Positions 28,182 to 40,442 of a stretch of DNA of 64,000 bases are shown here, piece by piece (positions within the stretch are counted from its first letter, which is position 1; each line of letters starts with the position of its first letter). The stretch spans positions 1 through 64,000 of the forward strand of contig CAINLR010000031.1 of assembly GCA_903850425.1 (NCBI GenBank). Reading direction: 5' to 3'. The position numbers and the translations under genes were made by a program. The notes beneath the pieces are model-generated. The model was not told where the DNA came from. It saw only the letters and a list, made by a program, of their open reading frames with translations, and did not search any database. The stretch is from an uncultured Verrucomicrobia subdivision 3 bacterium (lineage in GTDB: Bacteria; Verrucomicrobiota; Verrucomicrobiia; Limisphaerales; UBA11358).

Positions 28182-29711
28182 TCAGTCCGTGCACGGCAGG
28201 GTGACGGTGAACGTCGTCCCGACATTTTCCGTGCTGGCAACTTCAACCGTGCCGCCGTGCGCCTCGACGATGGACTTGGCAATCGCCAGGCCCAAACCCG
28301 CGTGGTTGCCGGTGCGGGACTGGCTTGCGCGATAAAACCGTTCAAACACGCGGGGCAGATCGGTGGCGGCAATGCCGCAGCCCGTGTCGGTGACCGTCAA
28401 AATCGCCGTGTTGTTTTCGAAGCGCGTCACGATTTGGATTTTGCCGTCGTCTTTATTGTAGTGAATGGCGTTGGTCAGAAGATTGGTGATCACTTCCGAC
28501 ATGCTGATGGCATCGCAAGAAATTTCCATCGGCGCAAGGTCGCAGAGAATTTGCAACTGGCGCGTGGCGGCGAGCGGGCGGATGAGCTGCACGCAGTCCG
28601 CAACGATCACGGAGAGATCGTTTTTTTCCCGCCGCAGGATTTCCTGTCCCGCGTCCAGCCGCGCGAGTTCGAGCAGCGCGTCGGTGAGCCGCCGCATTTC
28701 CTGCGCCGTGTCCAGGCAGGCGGCCACAGAATCGCGGTAATCCGCCGGGCTGCGCTCGCGGGCCAAGGTGGTTTGCGCTTCGGAAATCAGCACGGCGAGC
28801 GGCGTGCGCAGTTCGTGCGCGGCGTCGGCGGTGAATTGTTTCTGCTGCGCGAATGCCGCTTCGAGCCGCGCGAAGGTGGAGTTCAAAACGCCCGCGAGCT
28901 GGCCGAGTTCGCTGTCCGTTTCCTCGGCGTTGATGCGCTCGGACAAATTCCCGGCGGCGATGCGCTGCGCGGCGACGCTGATTTTCTCCACGGGGCGGAG
29001 CGCGCGGACAATGATGAACCAAGCGCCGCCGAGTCCGCCAGCCAGCACCACCAGGCTGCCGAGCGCCAGCCAGCCGGCGAAACGCCGCGCGCTGGAAAGC
29101 TCCGGCGCGAGCGTGCGGCCGACGAGCACGCTGTCGCCAAGTTCCGTCGCGTGGAACATTTCGCGGAATGCGCCGCGCGTGCGCGCATAAGTGCCGGTGT
29201 CTTTCTCGCCGACCGGCGGGCGCGCAACCCCGGCGGGACAGTTGGTGGATTTTTGGTAGGGCGTGGCGGCTTCGCGCGACCAAAGCGAAAAATAAAATCC
29301 GCCGGCGGCGTCCAGCGCAAAGCGGCGGGCGGCGGCCGAAATCCGCGCGGCATCCAAGCCCGGCCTGTCCGGCGGACGACCGAAACCGCCATTTTGGTCC
29401 GGCGGCGGGCCGGGCTGTTCATCCTGACCAGGTGGCGGATTTGCCAAATTGTCCATCGGTTCGGGTGGCGGGCCAATAGCATCACCCGGCCGGTTCGGCG
29501 GGCCGTTGCCGAATCGCGGCTGTCCCGGCCCCGGCGCATACAGCGTGGCGCTCAACGCCGCGACGCGGCGCTGCAATTCCCCGTCGAGCTGGCTCACGCT
29601 GTTCGCGAAATGGATTTCGTAGGCGGTGAAATCCAGCGCCAGCAGAACCAGCCCCAGCAGAAAGGCAATCCAGAGCAGCAGCCGCCAGTGAATGGATTTG
29701 GTGAATTTCAT
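28182..29711 (-). CDS. Sensor histidine kinase with Pro/Gly-rich sensor region
   Basis: A 509-residue membrane kinase. Order: TM1 (about 9-31); a periplasmic region (32-210) whose centre is Pro/Gly-rich (GPPPEPMDNLANPPPGQDEQ, about 80-118); TM2 (about 211-236); HAMP (237-289); HisKA with phospho-acceptor His299 in AAHELRTPL; and HATPase with NLLTNAIHYN, DTGCGIAATDLPRVF and GLGLAIAKSIV. Its gene overlaps the response-regulator gene by 4 bp (ATGA type), so they form a pair. The Pro/Gly region resembles the linker of the divergent membrane protein at 30735-31652. The signal sensed is unknown. Confidence 0.92.
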   Translation of the reverse strand: MKFTKSIHWRLLLWIAFLLGLVLLALDFTAYEIHFANSVSQLDGELQRRVAALSATLYAPGPGQPRFGNGPPNRPGDAIGPPPEPMDNLANPPPGQDEQPGPPPDQNGGFGRPPDRPGLDAARISAAARRFALDAAGGFYFSLWSREAATPYQKSTNCPAGVARPPVGEKDTGTYARTRGAFREMFHATELGDSVLVGRTLAPELSSARRFAGWLALGSLVVLAGGLGGAWFIIVRALRPVEKISVAAQRIAAGNLSERINAEETDSELGQLAGVLNSTFARLEAAFAQQKQFTADAAHELRTPLAVLISEAQTTLARERSPADYRDSVAACLDTAQEMRRLTDALLELARLDAGQEILRREKNDLSVIVADCVQLIRPLAATRQLQILCDLAPMEISCDAISMSEVITNLLTNAIHYNKDDGKIQIVTRFENNTAILTVTDTGCGIAATDLPRVFERFYRASQSRTGNHAGLGLAIAKSIVEAHGGTVEVASTENVGTTFTVTLPCTD

Positions 29712-30361
29712 TTCTCAATGCCATAGCCCTGGCCCCGCCGCGTGGCGATGAGCTCCGCGCCGAGTTTTTTGCGGATGCTGAAAACATGAACGTCGAGCAA
29801 ATTGGAAAGCGTGTCGTCGTTTTCGTCGAAGAGATGTTCGTAAAGCTCCTTGCGGGAAATGACTTCGCCGCGGTGGAGCGCAAGATATTCAAGGATGGCA
29901 AATTCGCGCGCGGTCAGCGTCACCGGTTTATCGGCCCGCGTGACGTTGCGCGTGCGCGTGTCGAGCGCGACGTCGCCGATTTCAATTTTATTGGTCGTTT
30001 GCTTTGCGCTGCGGCGGATCAGCGCGCGGACACGCGCGAGCAGCTCGGACAAATCAAACGGCTTGATCAAATAATCATCCGCGCCGGTGTCGAGGCCGCG
30101 CACGCGGTCGCCGGGCGCGTCGCGCGCGGTGAGCATGAGCACGGGCGTCGGCTTCTGTTTGCGGAGCCGCGCCAGCAACGCCCAGCCGTCGAGTTTGGGC
30201 AGCATCACGTCCAGCACAATGGCGTCGTAATCGCAGCTCTCCGCCTTGAAAAATCCGTCGTCACCGTCGCCGGCGGCGTCCACGGCATAGCCTTCCTCGC
30301 GCAAGGCCTTGGCCAGAGTGCGCTGCAAGCGCGGCTCGTCTTCCACGATCAGAATTCGCAT
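29708..30361 (-). CDS. OmpR-family response regulator
   Basis: A 217-residue regulator: receiver domain MRILIVEDEPRLQRTL with phospho-acceptor Asp51 (AIVLDVMLPKLDGW), conserved Thr (LMLTARD) and Lys (YLIKPFD), then a winged-helix DNA-binding domain (VTLTAREFAILEYLALHRGEVISRKELYEHL...RGQGYGIE). The ATG at 30361 gives the canonical N-terminus; an ATG at 30391 would add ten residues and cannot be excluded. Three predicted operators of the form CTTAAT-N5-CTTAAT lie in this locus, one before this gene, so it is probably autoregulated and controls the divergent and downstream genes. Confidence 0.93.
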   Translation of the reverse strand: MRILIVEDEPRLQRTLAKALREEGYAVDAAGDGDDGFFKAESCDYDAIVLDVMLPKLDGWALLARLRKQKPTPVLMLTARDAPGDRVRGLDTGADDYLIKPFDLSELLARVRALIRRSAKQTTNKIEIGDVALDTRTRNVTRADKPVTLTAREFAILEYLALHRGEVISRKELYEHLFDENDDTLSNLLDVHVFSIRKKLGAELIATRRGQGYGIEK

Positions 30362-30436
30362 CGCCGGTTTTTGTTCGACATTTTTCAGCATAAATCAAAC
30401 ACCGCCCCTAGGCACGTTTTTACGACATGAATGGGA

Positions 30437-30470
30437 AGCCTAGCTGACTGATGATTAAGCCAGCATTAAT
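30437..30470 (-). promoter_or_regulatory. Predicted response-regulator-dependent promoter A (two-component operon)
   Basis: On the minus strand: ATTAAT-GCTGG-CTTAAT, 11 bp, TAGGCT. The hexamers recur every 11 bp, as for OmpR-family dimers, and the -10-like box follows at the same distance as in promoters B and C. It reads towards the response regulator and kinase genes. Confidence 0.65.
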
Positions 30471-30513
30471 TCCGTCGGGGTTGCGAAAAATAAATTTCGC
30501 ACCAATTTTCCAG

Positions 30514-30547
30514 CTTCATCATGGCTTAATCAGGCCTCGTGTAGATT
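30514..30547 (+). promoter_or_regulatory. Predicted response-regulator-dependent promoter B (membrane protein)
   Basis: CTTCAT-CATGG-CTTAAT, 11 bp, TAGATT. It faces the gene at 30735, leaving a leader of about 180 bases. With site A it forms a perfect 11-bp inverted repeat TGATTAAGCCA/TGGCTTAATCA (30452-30462 and 30522-30532). Confidence 0.7.
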
Positions 30548-30734
30548 GGCCGTGGAAAATGAAAAACAAACACAACTATTCACGACCGGATGGCCAGCCA
30601 AGGCCGGTGAAATCCAAGTCCGTGATGCAGGGTGTTTATGGGAGTGAGCAGTTCACGCGGCGATGAGAAATAAACAAATCGCTGCGAACAACGGAAACAT
30701 AAACAAACAAAACAAAATGAAAGGAAAACAAGCA

Positions 30735-31652
30735 ATGAAAAATAAATTAATGTCAGGCCACTTCGCGGACGGGATGAATTTCAAGCGCCCGTCCTGGTTG
30801 GCAATATTCGCCAGTCTTGGAATGCTGCTCGTGGGCTATTACGCATATTACGGGATGTTCCCTTATGGGCACGCGGGGCAAGTCCAGGCCGTCAACATTT
30901 GGCAGATGCTGATGGAAAACGGCTCGTTTCTGCTGATGGTGGTGGGAGCCTTTGGAATTGTGGCGTCTTTGACTTGGTGGTTTTTGGCAGCGATCAAGTT
31001 CCGCTTTCGCAGTTCACCTCCTCGGCCGGCCGTGGCTGGTTCTTTGGTAAGCGGGTTGGGATTGGCGGCGGTTCTGTGCTTCTGTTGCGCAAACCTGCAA
31101 GCCCAAGATGATAACGGCGGCGGACCCGGCGGACCTCCGCCCGGACAACCCGGCGGTGGCGGGCCTGGCGACAACGGCGGCCCCGGTGGACCACCGCCGG
31201 ATGATTTCGGCAATGGCGGACCGGGCGGGCCGCCGCCTGGAAACTTCGGCAATGGCGGTCCCGGCGATACGCGCGGCGGCTTCGATCCCGCCCAGTTCCA
31301 GCAGCGCATGATGGAGCAAACCCGTCAAAGCCTCAACGTGACCAACGACGATGAATGGGCGGCGATTCAGCCGCTGATTCACAAAGTCATGGACGCCCGG
31401 CGCGAGGCCGGCGGTCCCGGCGGTCCCGGTGGCCGAGGCCGGCCCGGAGCGCAAGCCAGCAGCGAACAGCAAGCGTTGCAGCAGGCAATTGATGCCAGCG
31501 CCCCGGTCGCGCAAATCAAAGAAGCGCTGGCCAAATACCGCGCTGCGCGCAAAGACAAGCAAGCCAAACTCGAAGCGGCCCAAGCCAACCTGAAAACCGT
31601 CCTTAGCGTAAAACAGGAAGCACAGGCCGTGCTGCTGGGGCTGTTTCCTTGA
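30735..31652 (+). CDS. Membrane protein with Gly/Pro-rich linker and Spy/CpxP-like tail
   Basis: A 305-residue protein. Two or three hydrophobic helices come first (LAIFASLGMLLVGYYAYYGMF, FLLMVVGAFGIVASLTWWFLAAI, VSGLGLAAVLCFCCANLQAQ). A long Gly/Pro repeat follows (GPGGPPPGQPGGGGPGDNGG and similar). Then comes a helical domain, QSLNVTNDDEWAAIQPLIHKVMDARRE...LKTVLSVKQEAQAVLLGLF, that resembles periplasmic Spy/CpxP-type stress or metal sensors. The ATG at 30735 has AAGGAA seven bases upstream; earlier in-frame ATGs exist. It is divergent from the two-component genes and has predicted promoter B. It could be an accessory sensor or target of the kinase; that role is inference. Confidence 0.65.
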   Translation: MKNKLMSGHFADGMNFKRPSWLAIFASLGMLLVGYYAYYGMFPYGHAGQVQAVNIWQMLMENGSFLLMVVGAFGIVASLTWWFLAAIKFRFRSSPPRPAVAGSLVSGLGLAAVLCFCCANLQAQDDNGGGPGGPPPGQPGGGGPGDNGGPGGPPPDDFGNGGPGGPPPGNFGNGGPGDTRGGFDPAQFQQRMMEQTRQSLNVTNDDEWAAIQPLIHKVMDARREAGGPGGPGGRGRPGAQASSEQQALQQAIDASAPVAQIKEALAKYRAARKDKQAKLEAAQANLKTVLSVKQEAQAVLLGLFP

Positions 31653-31710
31653 CGGCGCGAAACAACCGGAAGCAGCGCTGCGGCAAATGAAAAATTCAGC
31701 GTGGCTCCGC

Positions 31711-31744
31711 CTTAATGTCCGCTTAATCTAGGCGGAACTATGCT
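31711..31744 (+). promoter_or_regulatory. Predicted response-regulator-dependent promoter C (CotH gene)
   Basis: CTTAAT-GTCCG-CTTAAT, 11 bp, TATGCT, with the ATG of the CotH gene 26 bp beyond. This is the best match of the three. Confidence 0.75.
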
Positions 31745-31769: not shown

Positions 31770-34700
31770 ATGAAAACCATGCTTGCCTGCCTGTCTGCGT
31801 GTTTGACCTTCGCGCTGGCCGCGTCCGCGCAAATCGTCTTCACCGAAGTTCATTATCATCCGGTTGAGGTGCCGGCCTTCAACGCCGACGGCACGCCGTA
31901 TCTCGGTCTGACCAACGACATTCATGAGTTCGTGGAAATCCAGAACATTTCCGGCGCGATGATTGACGTGTCCGGCTGGACGCTCGGCGGCGGCATCAGC
32001 TACACGTTTCCGACGAACACCGCCGTCGCGTCGGGCGCTTTTCAGGTGATTGCCAAAAATCCCGCGCGGCTCGCGATTGTTTATTCGCTGAATGTCACCA
32101 ATATTCTCGGCCCTTACAGCGGGCATCTCGGCAACAGCAGCGACACGGTGCGGTTGGAGGATTTGTCCGGCAACGCGATGGACGCGGTTGCCTACAATTC
32201 AGAATTCCCGTGGGCGCAGGCCGCCGACGCGCTCGGCGCGTCGGACCGGTTCACGGGTTTGAACTCGACGAATTATCAATACAAAGGCCGCTCGCTCCAG
32301 CGCGTGAGCGTGACCTGGCCGTCGTCCGATCCGGCGAACTGGCTCGCCTCGCCGCTCACCGGCCCGACGCCCGGCGCGGCGCAGGCGGTCACGCGCACGA
32401 TTCCCAAGCCGGTGGTCGTCGCGTATTCCGCCGCGCAAACCGCCGACGGCGCGACGATCATCCGCTCAAACCAAATGGTCACGGTCAACTGCACTTACTC
32501 GGCCACGAACGGCTTGACCAACGTGGTGCTGGAATACTTCGTCGAAAATGTGAATCTCACGAATCAAGCGCACACCGTTGTGGCCATGACAAATCTGTTC
32601 AGCGCAAGTTACACGGTGAATTTGCCCGGCCAGACGAATCGCGCCATCGTGCGCTATCGTTTCAAGGCGGATCGCGGCGACGGTCTCGAAGTGGTTTCGC
32701 CGCGCGCGGACGATCCGCAAATTGCGCCGCTCGGCACCAACAACGCGCTCGAAGCGTGGTGGGGTTATTACGTCACGCCGGTGCGGAGCACGACGAACGC
32801 CGCGAGCTATGACATTTTTGTCTCCAACGACAATTACCGGGTGATGAGCAACAACATCGTGCAAAATCCCAAGCGCGTGACCGCCGCCAGCGCCACGGGT
32901 CTGCCGCGCGACACGCCGTATGTGGCGCTGACTGCGCCGCGCTGGGAAGGCTCGGTGCCGGGACTGTTTTGCACCGCCGGCCAGGTGTTCGACATGCAAA
33001 TTCGGTTTCACGGCAGCGTGGCGCATCGCGCGCCCACCGAACATTCTTACAAGGTGGATTTTCCCGACCATCAGCCGTTCAACGGCCAGTCGGGATGGTA
33101 TGAAACCTTGCACGGCTATGAATACATCGAGGCGCAAAAAATCATCCGACTGCTCGGTCTACCCTGTTCGCAAATGCGCCTGGTGGACTGGTATTTCAAC
33201 GCTGTCACCAACGAGCTGCATTCCGAGCAGGGCGTGTATAACAAAGACATGCTTGAGAGCTGGAGCGCCTTGCAGCAACAGTTGAATCCCGGCACGCCGA
33301 AAGAAGACGCCGGCGATCTTTTCAAATGCGTCGGCAACCGCAACGCGTCACAAAGCAACCTCGAAGGTCCTTACACGCGCGGTGACGAAGCGCCGATGTT
33401 GACCAACGCCGGGTGGAACCAGCTTCAGCGCTACGTCTGGAACTTCTCCATGGAAGACAACGAATGGAAAGGCTCGACGGAATTGCGTGACATGCTCGTG
33501 GGCATGTGGACGGTGCGCGGCGACACGCCGCAGACGCGCTCCTACACCAATACCTCCGCCACCGCGCCGACGGTGAAGCAATGGTTCACCAACAATTGGG
33601 ACATCGACAGAACCATCACCTCGATGGCGCTGCTCGAATGGATGAGCATCTGGGACGATGCCGCGCAGAACCATTATTTCTGGCGGCGGGCCAGTGGCCA
33701 GTGGTGCCGGCTCGGCTGGGATTACGATCTCGTCATGGGGGCCACTGGCAGCGCGGCCGGCAGCCTCGGCGGTGGTGGCGGTGGCGGTGGTGGCGGTGGG
33801 CCAGGCGGCACTACGAATCAAACCATTTATGGCGGCGAGGCCGGCGCGCCGGTTGTGTTCGATGGCACGAACTGGTTCATGGATACATTTTTCAAAACGT
33901 TCCGCGCCGAATACAACAAACGACTGTGGGAGCTGAACAATTCATTTTTCGATCCAACAAATCTGACCGCACAGGGCTTCGCGGTCGCACCCGTGTTCGC
34001 CAAAGGCCGCCAGGCATACATCAATTCCGTTTTGGGCGGCGCGTTCGGCACTTATTACAAACCCAACCGGCCGCTGAATGTTTATCCGGCAAGCAACGGC
34101 ATCGTCGTGCTGGCGACCAACTTTGTCACGAGCGCCTATTCGCATTCGCAGGGCACGCCGCAGTTGGCGACCCAGTGGGAAATCCGCACCGCCAGCGGCA
34201 CCTACGAGTCGCCAGTCCTGCGTGTCACCACAACCAACAGTTTCCTGACCAACTATCCGATTCCGTTTGATCAACTGACTTATGGCCAGCCGTATTACTG
34301 GCGCGCGACGCACATTGACACCAACGGCCATCCGTCCGTCGTCTCGGCGGAAACGCCGTTCACCTGGGGCACGGCCAACGTCTCAGCCGGCGCGCTGGTG
34401 ATGAATGAACTGCTCGCCGATAATCACACCATCGTCCAAAACGGCGGCACCTATCCCGATTACATCGAATTGTTCAACAACAGCGGCACGAACATTTCGC
34501 TCGGCAGCTATTCGCTCACCGACGATCCGACGAACACGACTAAATTTGTTTTTCCGTCCGGCACCACGATGTTGCCCGGCGGTTATCTCGTCGTGTGGTG
34601 CGATTCGCAAACCGTCGCGCCCGGACTGCACACCGGCTTCGGTTTGAGCAAGGAAGGCCAGACCGTTTTGCTCCTGCAGAACAACACGAACATCGTGGAC

Positions 34701-37535
34701 AGCGTGGCGTTCGGCCCGCAGGCGCCGGACGTTTCCATTGGCCGCATCATCAACGGCACCGGCGGCTGGCAGGCCAACACGCCCACGCCCGGCACCGCCA
34801 ATTCCGCCAAAATTCTCGGCGCGGTTGCCAATTTGCGCGTCAACGAATGGATGGCCGATCCGGCTTACGGCGACGACTGGTTTGAAATTTACAACACCGA
34901 CACGAACGTCGTCGCGCTCGCCAGCCTGTGGTTGAGCGACACGCCGTCCACGCCGATGATCACGCAAATCCCCGCGCTGTCGTTCATCGCCGGCAACGGC
35001 TGGACAAAATTCTGGGCCGACGGCAGCACGGCGGGCGGCAACCACTGCAATTTCTCGCTGAGCAAGAGCGGCGAAAACGTCGTGCTCACCGCCGCGAACG
35101 GCGCGACGACGATTGACACCATCAGCTTCAGCGCGCAGGGCTACGACATTTCACAAGGTCGTTTGCCCGACGGCGGCAATACGATGGTTTTCTTCACCAA
35201 CACCGCGTCACCCGGCGCTTGCAACTGGGTCGCGACCAACGTGGTCATCAACGAGCTGCTCGCCATTCCGGGAGCGCCGCTGGAGGACGCGATTGAAATT
35301 TACAACACGAATTCGTCCGCGCAGAACATCGGCGGCTGGTGGTTGAGCAACGACCTTTACAACCGGAAAAAATATCAGATCGCGTCCGGCACGACCATCG
35401 CCGCGAAAAGCGACAAAGTTTTTTATGGCGCGGATTTGGCGTCCGGCGCGGTGCCGTTTGCCTTCAGCGCGACCGGCGGGAACGCGATTCTTTCCGCCGC
35501 GGACGGCGCGGGCAATCTCACCGGCGCCGGCGCCATCGTGAGCTACGGCGCGCAGCCGACGAACACCTCGTTTGGCCGCGTGACGGCGACCGGCCTGAAC
35601 AACACGCTCGGCGGCGCGGAATTCTGGCCGCAGTCCGCGCACACGTTCGGCCAGGACAATCCGCCGGACGTGGCGACGTTCCGCACCGGCACCGGCGCGG
35701 CCAACGCCTCGCCGAAAATCGGGCCGGTCACGATCAACGAAATCATGTATCACCCGCTCGATATTCCGAATGTGATCGGCGGGGTTACGAATGTCAGCGA
35801 TGATTCGCGTGATGAATTTATCGAGCTTGCCAATATCAGCACGAACACTGTGGATTTGAGCGGTTGGATGCTCACCGGCGCTGTGTCGTGCACGCTCACC
35901 AACGGCACCACGCTCGCCGCTGGCGGGTATTTATTGCTCGTGAGTTTTGATCCGACCGTGACGACGAATCTCACAACGTTCCGCAGTTATTACAGCCTGT
36001 CCGCCGGCGTCCCGATTTACGGGCCGTATTCCGACAAGCTGCCGAACAACACGGCGATCCTCGAACTTGCGTATCCGCTGCTCATCGGCGGCTACACGAA
36101 TTTTGTCCAGGTGGACAAGGTCGAATATCGCGACGACTCGACGTGGCCCGGCAAGGCCGATGGCAAAGGCTCGTCGCTGTCGCGCGCCAGCAGCAGCGTC
36201 ATCGGGAACAACGCCGCGAACTGGGGCAGCAAGACGCCCACGCCCGGTGCGGCCAATCTCGGCGTCGTCACCAACGCGGTCATTTCAACCACTTCGCCGC
36301 TACCCGGCGTCGTCGTGGGTATTGGCTACACCAACACCTTCGCGGCCACGGGCGGTTCGACGCCGTATTCGTGGAGCATCACGTCCGGCTCGGTGCCCGG
36401 ACTTTCGCTCGCAACCAATGGAATTTTGAGCGGCACGCCGGCTTTGGCAGGCACCAATATTTTCACCGTGCAACTCGCGGACAACATCGGTTTCGCCACA
36501 AATAAACAATTCACTTTGGTGGTCGTCACCACCGCGCCGAGCATGACCACGGCTTCGCTGACGAACGGCACGCTAGGCGCCGCCTATTCGCAAACGCTGA
36601 CCGCGGCCGGCGGCACTTCGCCTTACAGTTGGAGCCTCGCCAGCGGCGCGCTGCCCGGCGGACTCACCTTGAACAGCGCCGGCGTCATCAGCGGCACGCC
36701 CGCCACCAACGGCACGTTCAGCTTCACCGCGCAACTGGCCGACGCTTATGGACTCACGGCGAGCAGTTTGTTTTCGCTGACGATTGTGGCCGCGCCGCTC
36801 GCCATCACCACGGTCTCGCCGATGTCAGACGGCACGCAGGGAAATTATTATTCCCAGGCGTTGACCGGCGCGGGCGGCATCATGCCGTATTCGTGGAGTC
36901 TCGCCGGCGGTGCGCTGCCGCCCGGACTTTCGCTGGATAATCTCGGTGACATCACGGGCACATCAACCAACCTCGGCACTTTCAATTTCACCGCGCGGGT
37001 GACCGACAATCTTGGCACGAGCGTCACCAAGCTGCTCGCGATTTCCATTGTCTCGCCGACGGTCAGCATCACGACGGCCACCCTGCCCGACGGCACGGTG
37101 GGCGCGGCGTATTTGCAATCGCTCGCCGCGTCCGGCGGCACGCCGCCTTACAGTTGGAGCATCGTGTGGGGCGCGTTGCCCGCCGGCTTGAACTTGAGCA
37201 GCGCCGGCGCGGTCAGCGGCACGCCCACGAACGGCGGCACGTTCAGCTTCATCGCACAGGTGGCTGACAACGCCAGTGTGACCGCACAGCAGATTTTCAC
37301 GGTCGCCATCCAAAACAACCCACCCGGCCTCAGCGTGCTAAGCGCGACGAACGGCACGATTCAGTTGCTCATCACCGGCGATGGTGGCGCGAATTACAGC
37401 ATCGAGTCTTCGGCGGAGCTGCTGGAATGGGAAGCGCGGCTGCTGACCAACGCGCCGGCGATGCCGTTTCGCTGGACGGACCCGCGTGCTGCCGACGGCT
37501 CGGCGCGTTTCTACCGCGTGTGGTTAAGCCAATAA
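31770..37535 (+). CDS. Secreted CotH-kinase / lamin-tail / Ig-repeat protein
   Basis: A 1,921-residue exported protein with signal peptide MKTMLACLSACLTFALAASA. Domains in order: a lamin-tail domain (about 20-215); a CotH-type kinase-like domain (about 370-680, with MQIRFHGSVAHRAPTEHSYKVDF, VYNKDMLESW and WCRLGWDYDLVMGATG); a run of ten glycines; several more lamin-tail domains (about 885-1500, for example VINELLAIPGAP and VTINEIMYHPLD); four putative Ig repeats (YSWSLASGALPGGLTLNSAG type, about 1510-1845); and a C-terminal segment. CotH proteins of spore formers phosphorylate proteins; activity here is inferred. It heads the VTC-DUF4956-HlyD gene set and has predicted promoter C. Confidence 0.88.
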   Translation: MKTMLACLSACLTFALAASAQIVFTEVHYHPVEVPAFNADGTPYLGLTNDIHEFVEIQNISGAMIDVSGWTLGGGISYTFPTNTAVASGAFQVIAKNPARLAIVYSLNVTNILGPYSGHLGNSSDTVRLEDLSGNAMDAVAYNSEFPWAQAADALGASDRFTGLNSTNYQYKGRSLQRVSVTWPSSDPANWLASPLTGPTPGAAQAVTRTIPKPVVVAYSAAQTADGATIIRSNQMVTVNCTYSATNGLTNVVLEYFVENVNLTNQAHTVVAMTNLFSASYTVNLPGQTNRAIVRYRFKADRGDGLEVVSPRADDPQIAPLGTNNALEAWWGYYVTPVRSTTNAASYDIFVSNDNYRVMSNNIVQNPKRVTAASATGLPRDTPYVALTAPRWEGSVPGLFCTAGQVFDMQIRFHGSVAHRAPTEHSYKVDFPDHQPFNGQSGWYETLHGYEYIEAQKIIRLLGLPCSQMRLVDWYFNAVTNELHSEQGVYNKDMLESWSALQQQLNPGTPKEDAGDLFKCVGNRNASQSNLEGPYTRGDEAPMLTNAGWNQLQRYVWNFSMEDNEWKGSTELRDMLVGMWTVRGDTPQTRSYTNTSATAPTVKQWFTNNWDIDRTITSMALLEWMSIWDDAAQNHYFWRRASGQWCRLGWDYDLVMGATGSAAGSLGGGGGGGGGGGPGGTTNQTIYGGEAGAPVVFDGTNWFMDTFFKTFRAEYNKRLWELNNSFFDPTNLTAQGFAVAPVFAKGRQAYINSVLGGAFGTYYKPNRPLNVYPASNGIVVLATNFVTSAYSHSQGTPQLATQWEIRTASGTYESPVLRVTTTNSFLTNYPIPFDQLTYGQPYYWRATHIDTNGHPSVVSAETPFTWGTANVSAGALVMNELLADNHTIVQNGGTYPDYIELFNNSGTNISLGSYSLTDDPTNTTKFVFPSGTTMLPGGYLVVWCDSQTVAPGLHTGFGLSKEGQTVLLLQNNTNIVDSVAFGPQAPDVSIGRIINGTGGWQANTPTPGTANSAKILGAVANLRVNEWMADPAYGDDWFEIYNTDTNVVALASLWLSDTPSTPMITQIPALSFIAGNGWTKFWADGSTAGGNHCNFSLSKSGENVVLTAANGATTIDTISFSAQGYDISQGRLPDGGNTMVFFTNTASPGACNWVATNVVINELLAIPGAPLEDAIEIYNTNSSAQNIGGWWLSNDLYNRKKYQIASGTTIAAKSDKVFYGADLASGAVPFAFSATGGNAILSAADGAGNLTGAGAIVSYGAQPTNTSFGRVTATGLNNTLGGAEFWPQSAHTFGQDNPPDVATFRTGTGAANASPKIGPVTINEIMYHPLDIPNVIGGVTNVSDDSRDEFIELANISTNTVDLSGWMLTGAVSCTLTNGTTLAAGGYLLLVSFDPTVTTNLTTFRSYYSLSAGVPIYGPYSDKLPNNTAILELAYPLLIGGYTNFVQVDKVEYRDDSTWPGKADGKGSSLSRASSSVIGNNAANWGSKTPTPGAANLGVVTNAVISTTSPLPGVVVGIGYTNTFAATGGSTPYSWSITSGSVPGLSLATNGILSGTPALAGTNIFTVQLADNIGFATNKQFTLVVVTTAPSMTTASLTNGTLGAAYSQTLTAAGGTSPYSWSLASGALPGGLTLNSAGVISGTPATNGTFSFTAQLADAYGLTASSLFSLTIVAAPLAITTVSPMSDGTQGNYYSQALTGAGGIMPYSWSLAGGALPPGLSLDNLGDITGTSTNLGTFNFTARVTDNLGTSVTKLLAISIVSPTVSITTATLPDGTVGAAYLQSLAASGGTPPYSWSIVWGALPAGLNLSSAGAVSGTPTNGGTFSFIAQVADNASVTAQQIFTVAIQNNPPGLSVLSATNGTIQLLITGDGGANYSIESSAELLEWEARLLTNAPAMPFRWTDPRAADGSARFYRVWLSQ

Positions 37536-37812: not shown

Positions 37813-38652
37813 ATGTCACAAGACCATCAGTTGCAACAACAGCGGTTCGAGCTCAAATATCTGGTGCCTGAGCCGGTGACGCTGGCACTGCGCGATTTCT
37901 TGAGCTGTCATTTGGAGTTGGACGATTTCGGCGTCGGCCGGCCGAATTTATCGTATCCCGTGCATAGCTTGTATCTCGACACGGACGACTTGATGACGCA
38001 TCAAGCCACGCAGAATGGTGACAAAAACCGGTTCAAGCTCCGACTGCGCTACTACAATGACGAGCCGGGGTCGCCGGTGTTTTTTGAGATCAAGCGGCGT
38101 GAAGCCAACTGCATTTTGAAACGCCGCTGTCCGGTGCGCCGCGACGCGGTGGCATTGATGCTCGCCGGGCAGATGCCCGATCTGGAGCAATTGCTTTCCC
38201 AGGAACCGCACCACCACGTCGCGCTGCAACAGTTCAACCAATTGCTGCTCAAATTCAATGCCCGGCCCAAAGCGCACAATAGCTACCTGCGCGAGGCGTG
38301 GGTCAGTCCGGAAAATAATTCCATCCGCGTCACCTTTGACCGCAGCATTCACATCGAACCGTGTTTCAAGACGGAGGCCGTCGTCGCCATGACGCGTCCG
38401 CTTCATATCTATGCCGAGGACGTGGTGCTGGAATTGAAGTTCACCAACCGGTTTCCCAACTGGTTCAAGGAACTCGTGCGGTGCTTCAATCTCATGCAAT
38501 TATCCGCCGCCAAGTATTCCATGGGCGTCACCCTGATCGGTGAGCATCGGTTCTACGAAAGCACCCATTTGCGCGAGTGGTCCGGCATGACCGCCGCCGG
38601 AAACTCCGAGGAAGAGTTATTCCCGGCCCCGGCCCCCGCCGCGACCAATTGA
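37813..38652 (+). CDS. VTC-domain protein (polyphosphate polymerase-like)
   Basis: A 279-residue member of the triphosphate-tunnel VTC family, whose yeast member VTC4 makes polyphosphate from ATP. Tunnel residues are visible as alternating charged strands: RFELKYLV (14-21), LYLDTDD, FKLRLRYY, VFFEIKRRE, KRRCPVRR and VLELKFTNRFPNWF. It begins a tight set with DUF4956 (6 bp later) and HlyD (overlap). The CotH-VTC-DUF4956 combination recurs in bacteria, suggesting the three act together at the membrane. The enzyme's actual product is not known for bacterial CotH-linked members. Confidence 0.85.
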   Translation: MSQDHQLQQQRFELKYLVPEPVTLALRDFLSCHLELDDFGVGRPNLSYPVHSLYLDTDDLMTHQATQNGDKNRFKLRLRYYNDEPGSPVFFEIKRREANCILKRRCPVRRDAVALMLAGQMPDLEQLLSQEPHHHVALQQFNQLLLKFNARPKAHNSYLREAWVSPENNSIRVTFDRSIHIEPCFKTEAVVAMTRPLHIYAEDVVLELKFTNRFPNWFKELVRCFNLMQLSAAKYSMGVTLIGEHRFYESTHLREWSGMTAAGNSEEELFPAPAPAATN

Positions 38653-38658
38653 TTTATT

Positions 38659-39345
38659 ATGAGCGACTGGTTTCTCAATGGCGATTTCGGCTCGGTGCCC
38701 ACCAACTATGCGGCGTTGATCATCGGCGTGCTGCTGGCGTTTGTCTGCGGCCATTTGATTGCGTGGACGTATATGTTCACCCACAACGGGCTTTCCTATT
38801 CCCGTTCGTATGTCAATACGCTGGTGCTCCTGCCCGTCATCGTCAGCATGGTGATGATGATTCTGGCCAACAATCTCGTGTTGGCGTTCGGGCTGATGGC
38901 GATCTTTGCCATGGTTCGTTTCCGCAGCACGCTGCGCGATACGCTGGATACGGCGTATGTGCTGGCGGTCATTGTGGTGGGTTTGGCCTGCGGCACCCTG
39001 AAATTCACCTCGGCCATTATCGGCTGCCTCGCCATCTCGGGCATCATGTGTTATCTGCGCTACACCGGCTTTGGCACCCGCCATCGGTATGACCTGATCT
39101 TGAATGTGCAATGGGTGCGTCCGGCGCTGGAATTGCCGGACCTGCTCAACTTGCTCCGGCGCCACAGCCGCGCCGTCCAATGCGCCAGTCAGCGCTCCAG
39201 CGAGAGCTTCGCGGGCATGGATATTTCCTACCGGTTGCTCCTGCGCGATCCGGCCCGCAGTCATGAAATGGTGGATGAAATCCGGGCCTTGAAAGGCGTC
39301 TCCCGCGTCACCAGCCTCCAAGCCGAGGATGAATCTGAATTATGA
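38659..39345 (+). CDS. DUF4956 membrane protein
   Basis: A 228-residue protein with about four membrane helices in the first half (ALIIGVLLAFVCGHLIAWTYMF, TLVLLPVIVSMVMMILANNLVLAFGLMAIFAMV, YVLAVIVVGLACGTL, IIGCLAISGIMCYL) and a soluble C-terminal domain of ~90 residues. MVRFRSTLRDTLDTAYVL after the second helix pair is the family hallmark. Family function is unknown; it is the usual neighbour of VTC and CotH genes and could be the membrane part of a polyphosphate or phosphoryl-transfer machine. Its stop overlaps the HlyD start (ATGA). Confidence 0.85.
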   Translation: MSDWFLNGDFGSVPTNYAALIIGVLLAFVCGHLIAWTYMFTHNGLSYSRSYVNTLVLLPVIVSMVMMILANNLVLAFGLMAIFAMVRFRSTLRDTLDTAYVLAVIVVGLACGTLKFTSAIIGCLAISGIMCYLRYTGFGTRHRYDLILNVQWVRPALELPDLLNLLRRHSRAVQCASQRSSESFAGMDISYRLLLRDPARSHEMVDEIRALKGVSRVTSLQAEDESEL

Positions 39346-40442
39346 ATAACGGTTTTCCCCCCATTCCTATTCCGGCGAGTCAGCACTGGCTCAATGCGCG
39401 CCTGCGGGTGGTGCCCGTCGTGGTTTTTGGCGCGGCGTTGGTGGCGATAGCGTTTTTGTGGGACGCCCACGTCGCGGCCCCCACGTTGGTCGGCCAGGCC
39501 GAGGCGCAGTTGGCGGCCGTGAGCAGCATCAAGCCCGGCACGCTGGTGGGCTTGACCGTGAGTCGCTTCCAAGCCGTCAAGGCCGGGGATATTATTGGTC
39601 GCGTTGTCACCACGGATCCGCAAGTGCTGGAAGCTTCGCTGGCGGTGATCCATTCCGAAATCGAGTTGCTGCGGGTGAACATGGGGCCCGTCGTCACCCA
39701 GCAGCGCAACGCGATTAATTTCGCACAAGTCAGGCTGGACTGGATGAAGGAGCGCGCCGGCCTCGCTGCCGCCCGCGTGAACTTGCAGTTGACCGAGTCG
39801 GAATGGCATCGCTCCGAGGAGTTGTTCAAAGCCAAGCTGGTGTCGGAAGCCAGTCGTGACACCGCCCAGGCCGCCTATCAGGTTTCCGTGCATGAGGTCG
39901 AGGAACTCTCGGCGCTGCTGACCGAGGGGGAAAAGAGTTTCAAGGATCTGCAAGGCACCAACAATAGCGACATCTCGATTGTTTCGGACGCGCCGCTGCA
40001 GGCCGCCATCGCCGTGCAGGAATCCAAACTGCGCCAGGTGGAGGCGGAACTGAATCCGGTCACGCTCAAGGCGCCGATTGACGGCGTGGTGGCATTGATC
40101 GAGCATTTCTCCGGCGAAGCCGTGATCGCAGGTCAACCCATCGTTTCGATTGCGGCGGCCGAACCGACGCGGATTGTCGGCTATGTGCGTTCGCCGTTAA
40201 GCGTCGAGCCCGCCGCCGGCGACCGGGTGGAAATCCGCACCCGCCGCCGGCATCGCGTGACGGCCTCCGCCCAAATCACGGCGATCGGCGCGCAGTTGGA
40301 AACGCTTCCCGCCGTGTTCAGTGCCGCCGGCCGGCTTGATCCCGCCCAACAGGGGCTGCCCGTGAACATCAGCCTGCCCGGCAATCTCAAAATCCACCCC
40401 GGTGAACTGGTGGACATCACGCTCCTGCCGCAAGCCAACTAA
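39342..40442 (+). CDS. HlyD-family periplasmic adaptor (membrane fusion protein)
   Basis: A 366-residue adaptor: one N-terminal membrane helix (VVPVVVFGAALVAIAFLWDA, about 24-43), a first lipoyl half (IKPGTLVGLTVSRFQAVKAGDII), a coiled-coil hairpin (about 95-220) and a second lipoyl half (TLKAPIDGVVALIEHFSGEAVIAGQPIVSI), then a beta-barrel. Such proteins normally link an inner-membrane pump to an outer-membrane channel, but no pump is adjacent. Its place as last gene of the CotH-VTC-DUF4956 set suggests it may bridge DUF4956 to the periplasm; this is speculation. Confidence 0.82.
   Translation: MNNGFPPIPIPASQHWLNARLRVVPVVVFGAALVAIAFLWDAHVAAPTLVGQAEAQLAAVSSIKPGTLVGLTVSRFQAVKAGDIIGRVVTTDPQVLEASLAVIHSEIELLRVNMGPVVTQQRNAINFAQVRLDWMKERAGLAAARVNLQLTESEWHRSEELFKAKLVSEASRDTAQAAYQVSVHEVEELSALLTEGEKSFKDLQGTNNSDISIVSDAPLQAAIAVQESKLRQVEAELNPVTLKAPIDGVVALIEHFSGEAVIAGQPIVSIAAAEPTRIVGYVRSPLSVEPAAGDRVEIRTRRRHRVTASAQITAIGAQLETLPAVFSAAGRLDPAQQGLPVNISLPGNLKIHPGELVDITLLPQAN

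Follow-up and report, generated by a model that had tools for sequence, protein, structure and literature searches.

Three promoter-like sites with the same geometry lie around a two-component locus in the DNA analyzed here, a stretch of 64,000 nucleotides from an uncultured bacterium of Verrucomicrobia subdivision 3 (the window). Which protein reads these sites, and which genes do they serve? Each site is made of two hexamers separated by 5 bp, an 11-bp spacer and a TAnnnT box resembling a -10 element, and all of these are present in the window letter by letter as given in the first-pass annotation. The site before the response regulator-kinase operon (30437..30470, minus strand) reads ATTAAT-GCTGG-CTTAAT-CATCAGTCAGC-TAGGCT, the site before the divergent gene (30514..30547, plus strand) reads CTTCAT-CATGG-CTTAAT-CAGGCCTCGTG-TAGATT, and the site before the CotH gene (31711..31744, plus strand) reads CTTAAT-GTCCG-CTTAAT-CTAGGCGGAAC-TATGCT. 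We interpret them as putative operators and promoters of the type called class A in this work. Counting 7 nt after the -10 box, transcription should start at about 30430, 30554 and 31751, respectively. The consensus YTTAAK-N5-YTTAAK, with which the sites had been compared, has both halves only at the CotH site: the other two sites present its second half, but not the first. We consider it highly likely that all three serve as operators for the neighbouring response regulator, which would activate the regulator-kinase operon, the divergent gene and the CotH-VTC-DUF4956 unit.

The response regulator (29708..30391, minus strand, 227 aa) contains the Response_reg (PF00072, 2.2e-28) and Trans_reg_C (PF00486, 2.3e-21) domains of the OmpR/PhoB family. 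It has Phe204-Ser205 in its recognition helix and is the proposed binder of the boxes. Its gene overlaps that of a membrane sensor histidine kinase of 509 aa with HAMP, HisKA and HATPase_c domains (28182..29711, minus strand), so that a cognate kinase accompanies the regulator, as in other OmpR/PhoB two-component systems. The regulator had been described as PmrA-type, a name which we have not kept. Its nearest curated family is PmrA, tied with CztR/SilR/CopR at 226 bits each, and both cut-offs are missed (330 for NCBIfam PmrA, 279.2 for TIGR01387). The kinase also falls short of the corresponding CztR/SilR/CopR family (249.9 bits, TIGR01386 cut-off 292.55). Among solved structures matched over the full length of the regulator, DrrD is the best and PmrA the second. 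An AlphaFold model of kinase residues 3-285 has a mean pLDDT of 82. It has three matches in the PDB with E values no higher than 0.001, all of them to integrative models of membrane proteins from Bacillus (WalK-YycH, Mcp), and the fold thus gives no hint about the signal. RExxE is a metal-binding motif; in the sensor, only Arg183-Glu184 is conserved in both classes, and the matching second Glu is not seen.

On the other side, a reading frame of 35 aa, a putative leader, is found directly 3' of the divergent promoter (30559..30666, plus strand). Its stop codon, TGA, shares bases with the ATG that opens the following 329-aa frame (ATGA), and the two frames are possibly coupled in translation. 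The latter (30663..31652, plus strand) codes for a membrane or secreted protein with a Gly-Pro-rich stretch. It had been considered Spy-like, an identity which we could not sustain: no Pfam or NCBIfam family matches it at E 0.001, including Spy/CpxP (LTXXQ, PF07813). The positions of the sites before the regulator-kinase genes and before CotH are as previously proposed. In the two nearest relatives examined the divergent gene is different, HupE/UreJ in L066 and a family-less frame of 263 aa in L191. The CotH gene (31770..37535, plus strand) codes for a secreted protein of 1921 aa, which also has lamin-tail (LTD) and Ig-like domains. It is followed on the same strand by genes for a VTC-domain protein of 279 aa (37813..38652), a DUF4956 membrane protein of 228 aa (38659..39345) and an HlyD-like membrane-fusion protein of 366 aa (39342..40442). 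Despite the gap of 277 bp, the VTC gene probably shares a transcription unit with CotH, and the HlyD-like gene is presumed to be the last of the operon.

The pattern is rare in this genome. One half of it, YTTMAT-N11-TANNNT, is found five times in the window, compared with a mean of 0.39 in shuffled sequences, and none of 100 shuffles reaches five. The full 34-bp pattern, HTTMAT-N5-YTTAAT-N11-TANNNT, has only four exact matches in the whole genome (6,888,713 bases in 197 contigs), three of them in the window, while the reversed pattern has none in the same 6.89 Mb. The possibility that the pattern might be common elsewhere, unlinked to this locus, is thus not borne out. The fourth match, C27:22428(-), lies 90 bp upstream of a gene for a 398-aa protein of the NAGPA (phosphodiester glycosidase) family. 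When up to two mismatches are allowed, no excess is found (21 forward and reverse matches, 23 controls), so within this genome the claim depends on the exact pattern. The genome is 96% complete with 3.7% contamination: Some mixing of contigs is conceivable, though the pattern recurs in other genomes.

In fact, the full pattern appears 14 times in 8 of 59 genomes (this one and its relatives), with no control matches. Four of the 10 sites outside our genome directly adjoin a regulator gene 69-84% identical to that of the window, followed by a kinase gene. Some of the sites, such as those in G019 and G022, seem to be rich in AT and lack an obvious target. Matches to the regulator at E 1e-75 or better number 76, in 66 of the 196 genomes of the order. 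We have examined 66 regulator loci: 65 of these matches (the 11 weakest were excluded) and G004. A count that makes no use of the motif, recording pairs of near-identical hexamers up to 250 bp upstream of these 66 regulators at spacings from 6 to 35, gives a clear maximum at 11 bp, with 361 pairs (shuffle mean 86, highest of 10 shuffles 122). Spacing 6 comes next with 146 pairs, and spacings 6, 9, 14 and 15 slightly exceed their own shuffle maxima. At 11 bp, ATTAAG and CTTAAT are the hexamers that recur most often.

Boxes selected by their two hexamers alone, leaving the -10 element out of the criteria, are found in 61 of the 66 loci: 96 boxes, 55 towards the regulator and 41 divergent. No box reaches the threshold in L234, L237, L245 (with only 137 bp of upstream sequence), L248 and L249. 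The -10 element reappears in the profile of these boxes at the 11-bp distance first noticed in the window, although it played no part in the selection: Of the 96 boxes, 90% have A at position +29 and 89% have T at +33. T at +28 is present in 47% of all boxes and in 76% of the divergent ones. A core repeat, TTMA-N7-TTMA, is found upstream of 63 of 66 regulators of this family, compared with one weak match among the eight other OmpR-type regulators of the same genome, which are 37-44% identical. In a separate set of 80 loci from named records, of which 34 were examined in one scan and 38 in another, boxes were detected in records labelled Verrucomicrobia with close regulators. None was detected at the few Sphingomonas-type regulators tested.

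A second kind of site, CTTMAY-N5-CTTAAGG, appeared in the list obtained from our own genome with up to two mismatches. As the pattern CTTMAY-N5-CTTAAGG-N10-TANNNT, it is found 87 times in 40 of the 59 genomes, with no control matches. The regulator loci may be divided by their best box: 29 belong to class A (CTTAAT), 32 to class B (CTTAAGG or CTTAAGC) and five have none; L238 would count as mixed if weaker boxes were included. Both dialects coexist in our genome (G000), where the window regulator is class A and a paralogue on contig C176, 71% identical, is class B. G052, G056 and G142 likewise have regulators of both classes. The CTTMAY-N5-CTTAAGG box marks a sister regulon, represented by G000:C176:45187-49953 (L072) and by the 87 sites in 40 of the 59 genomes, where it precedes YHYH, EF-hand and lone-receiver genes as well as the gene of its own regulator.

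The residue which best separates the classes is 204, in the recognition helix: 71 of 73 regulators agree (four duplicate records were dropped from this set). Phe or Tyr is present in 33 of 34 class A regulators, and Ser or Cys in 38 of 39 class B regulators. The exceptions are L238, with Ser and a best box of class A, and L228, with Phe and a class B box lacking a -10 match. In the alignment, residues 204 and 205 correspond to His195 and Asn196 of PmrA. In the structure of PmrA with DNA, as described in PMC4660055, the contacts of His195 with bases are hydrophobic, and those of Asn196 are base-specific. Phe204 and CTTAAT are also found together beyond the main clade of class A, as in L062, L085, L239 and L095. 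Nevertheless, supported branches of the tree provide only three independent contrasts. One agrees with residue 204 as the specificity switch, none contradicts it and the other two show no difference, so that such a role lacks formal significance. We regard the idea that residue 204 sets the box dialect as a strong lead, rather than as a proven rule.

The association between boxes and regulator extends over the order. The strict class A pattern, CTTAAY-N5-CTTAAT-N11-TANNNT, is found at 40 sites in 26 of the 196 genomes, with two control matches. The regulator (E 1e-75) is present in 25 of these 26 genomes and in 41 of the 170 without the pattern (Fisher P 8e-13). Together with the boxes of identical geometry at 61 of 66 orthologous loci, this strengthens the suggestion that the adjacent regulator is responsible, which had been advanced as an inference. 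It also makes very unlikely that the boxes are read by another OmpR-family protein encoded elsewhere, the adjacent regulator being just one target. G147 would fit such an arrangement, with two sites of the strict class A pattern but no regulator at this threshold. A different exception is G070, which has one strict class A site, yet both its regulators have class B boxes. Against a distant regulator we should also count that the dialect of a box goes with the sequence of the regulator beside it, also in the four genomes with paralogues of both classes, and that the other OmpR-type regulators of our genome lack the repeat, save for the weak match mentioned. A chance resemblance in AT-rich intergenic DNA agrees with the results obtained with up to two mismatches in our genome, where the pattern does not outnumber its control, but we give it hardly any weight. 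Exact matches exceed controls in our genome (4 vs. 0), in the 59 genomes (14 vs. 0), for class B (87 vs. 0) and for strict class A (40 vs. 2), the 11-bp spacing exceeds its shuffle mean (361 vs. 86), the -10 element emerges unselected and the co-occurrence is as given above. For practical purposes, such conservation rules out chance.

It is also rather unlikely that the regulator binds the boxes mainly as a repressor, acting on its own gene and on other promoters which would be active without it. The box covers the usual position of a -35 element, where a repressor could also act. On the other hand, no TTGACA-like -35 element is seen in the profile of the regulator loci, whereas the -10 and both half-sites emerge. 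Activation of the PhoB type is well known and also counts against repression, as does the spacing, which is that of activated promoters described for this family in PMC4682146 and PMC4660055. The boxes are very probably the regulator's own operators, in activated promoters of the PhoB/PmrA type. Since relatives keep the same repeated word beside the matching regulator gene, this two-component system very probably controls itself and neighbouring genes for secreted or surface proteins. In the mechanism that we propose, the kinase would phosphorylate the regulator, which would then bind head to tail as a dimer on half-sites whose 11-bp offset corresponds to one turn of the helix. The dimer would be placed just upstream of the -10 box, in place of a -35 box. 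From there it may activate its own operon (autoregulation), the divergent membrane-protein gene and the CotH-VTC-DUF4956 unit.

The loci examined contain 93 distinct exact sites of class A or B, which lead to 91 target frames. Pfam was run on 80 of them, excluding nine regulator genes and two doubtful frames, and detected YHYH in 20, EF-hand families in about 20, CotH in 12, Response_reg in 10, LTD in four and VTC in one. According to local models, CotH is found downstream of 10 of the 33 class A sites, a response regulator of six, EF-like proteins of four and YHYH of none. For the 58 class B sites the figures are YHYH 20, EF-like 12, CotH six and response regulator three. Among class A regulators, 15 of 29 have a CotH gene no more than 7 kb away, as do three of 32 class B regulators (P 5e-4), and YHYH is near none of 29 and 10 of 32, respectively (P 9e-4). 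This split could be favoured by the origin of the models, since class A targets seeded that for CotH and class B targets that for YHYH. Ten further class A targets from the strict-pattern set include three CotH and two YHYH (L282 and L295) by Pfam. The association of CotH with class A and YHYH with class B thus seems to be only a tendency, because six of the 58 class B sites are followed by CotH, and two class A sites by YHYH. As to whether the pattern stays with CotH and VTC, it does so for CotH in about half of the class A loci. A general link with VTC is not supported: A weak search (a two-sequence model and phmmer) found VTC in just two places, the window and L200. Two other sites of our genome may be mentioned. 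A class B site at G000:C17:158594 (L073, 7311-8588) precedes a gene for an LTXXQ (Spy/CpxP) protein (PF07813, 1.3e-6). The site ATTAAT-N5-ATTAAG-N11-TAGAGT at G000:C16:1491 (L006) is located 7 bp before a gene with an Lcl C-terminal domain.

A striking feature of these sites is the position of the start codon. In 35 of the 93 sites an ATG is located exactly 7 bp past the last T of the -10 box, while other offsets up to 70 average 1.7. This ATG falls at the expected start of transcription, and therefore leaderless mRNAs are predicted for many of the targets. The three promoters of the window do not belong to this type: They have no ATG at the predicted start, and the first codon lies 46 bp after the -10 box for the regulator, 12 bp for the leader frame, 116 bp for the 329-aa frame behind it and 26 bp for CotH, instead of the expected 7. 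Among 591 genes without a box, taken from loci L062-L079 and L191-L250 and from the window, with starts approximated by the first ATG of long frames, TANNNT ends 7 bp before the ATG in 25 cases, compared with 0 to 14 cases at the other offsets tested. Only 50 of the 591 have a Shine-Dalgarno-like word. This suggests that leaderless genes are general in this lineage.

These observations may be combined in a wider reading, which we offer tentatively, its chances being slightly below even. The order of Verrucomicrobiota studied here would possess a paralogous two-component pair, in which an operator base and residue 204 separate two regulons of secreted or surface proteins. CTTAAT would be read through Phe or Tyr204 and CTTAAGG through Ser204. 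Many targets would be leaderless, the start point of the promoter being the start codon.

This work provides a predicted binding site, a regulator and a list of targets for a two-component family in a phylum with little regulatory work. The targets, which include CotH kinase-like, YHYH, EF-hand and lone-receiver proteins, are otherwise poorly understood. With the -10 box and the ATG at a fixed distance, starts of transcription can be predicted to single-base precision. The pair formed by classes A and B is a natural test of how paralogues avoid cross-talk, in which a single residue and a single base could be exchanged.

The targets of PmrA are genes for lipid A modification, unlike the CotH, YHYH, EF-hand and lone-receiver genes found here. 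PmrA/BasR of enterobacteria is also an OmpR/PhoB-type regulator which reads head-to-tail hexamers 5 bp apart, but the recognition helix of PmrA has His195-Asn196, instead of the Phe-Ser of class A or the Ser-Asn of class B. The half-sites of the PmrA box are given as CTTAAG/XTTAAT or CTTAAT/CCTAAG, 5 bp apart, in PMC3973317. BqsR of Pseudomonas is described as an activator which recognizes TTAAG-N6-TTAAG, the downstream repeat overlapping the -35 (PMC4682146). This corresponds to the 11-bp period of our sites. For BqsR/CarR (Pseudomonas; BqsR was compared by its published description) and DbfR (Vibrio), the regulator and kinase genes adjoin a gene for a periplasmic protein (PMC12714742), an arrangement similar to that of the window. 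The kind of system is therefore already known, since the same plan has been published for PmrA (PMC3973317) and BqsR (PMC4682146). Our literature search, which covered titles and the beginnings of abstracts, found no description of this regulator family, its box and dialects or its regulon in Verrucomicrobia, although papers beyond its range may exist. According to PMC7112168, genes for CotH, a polyphosphate polymerase (VTC) and DUF4956 accompany the Pel clusters of Gram-positive bacteria as an accessory set. The window also has these three genes in a row, and the comparison covers these genes alone. Unlike the Pel set, the CotH protein of the window is secreted, has 1921 aa and carries LTD and Ig-like domains, and the set follows a box of the response regulator.
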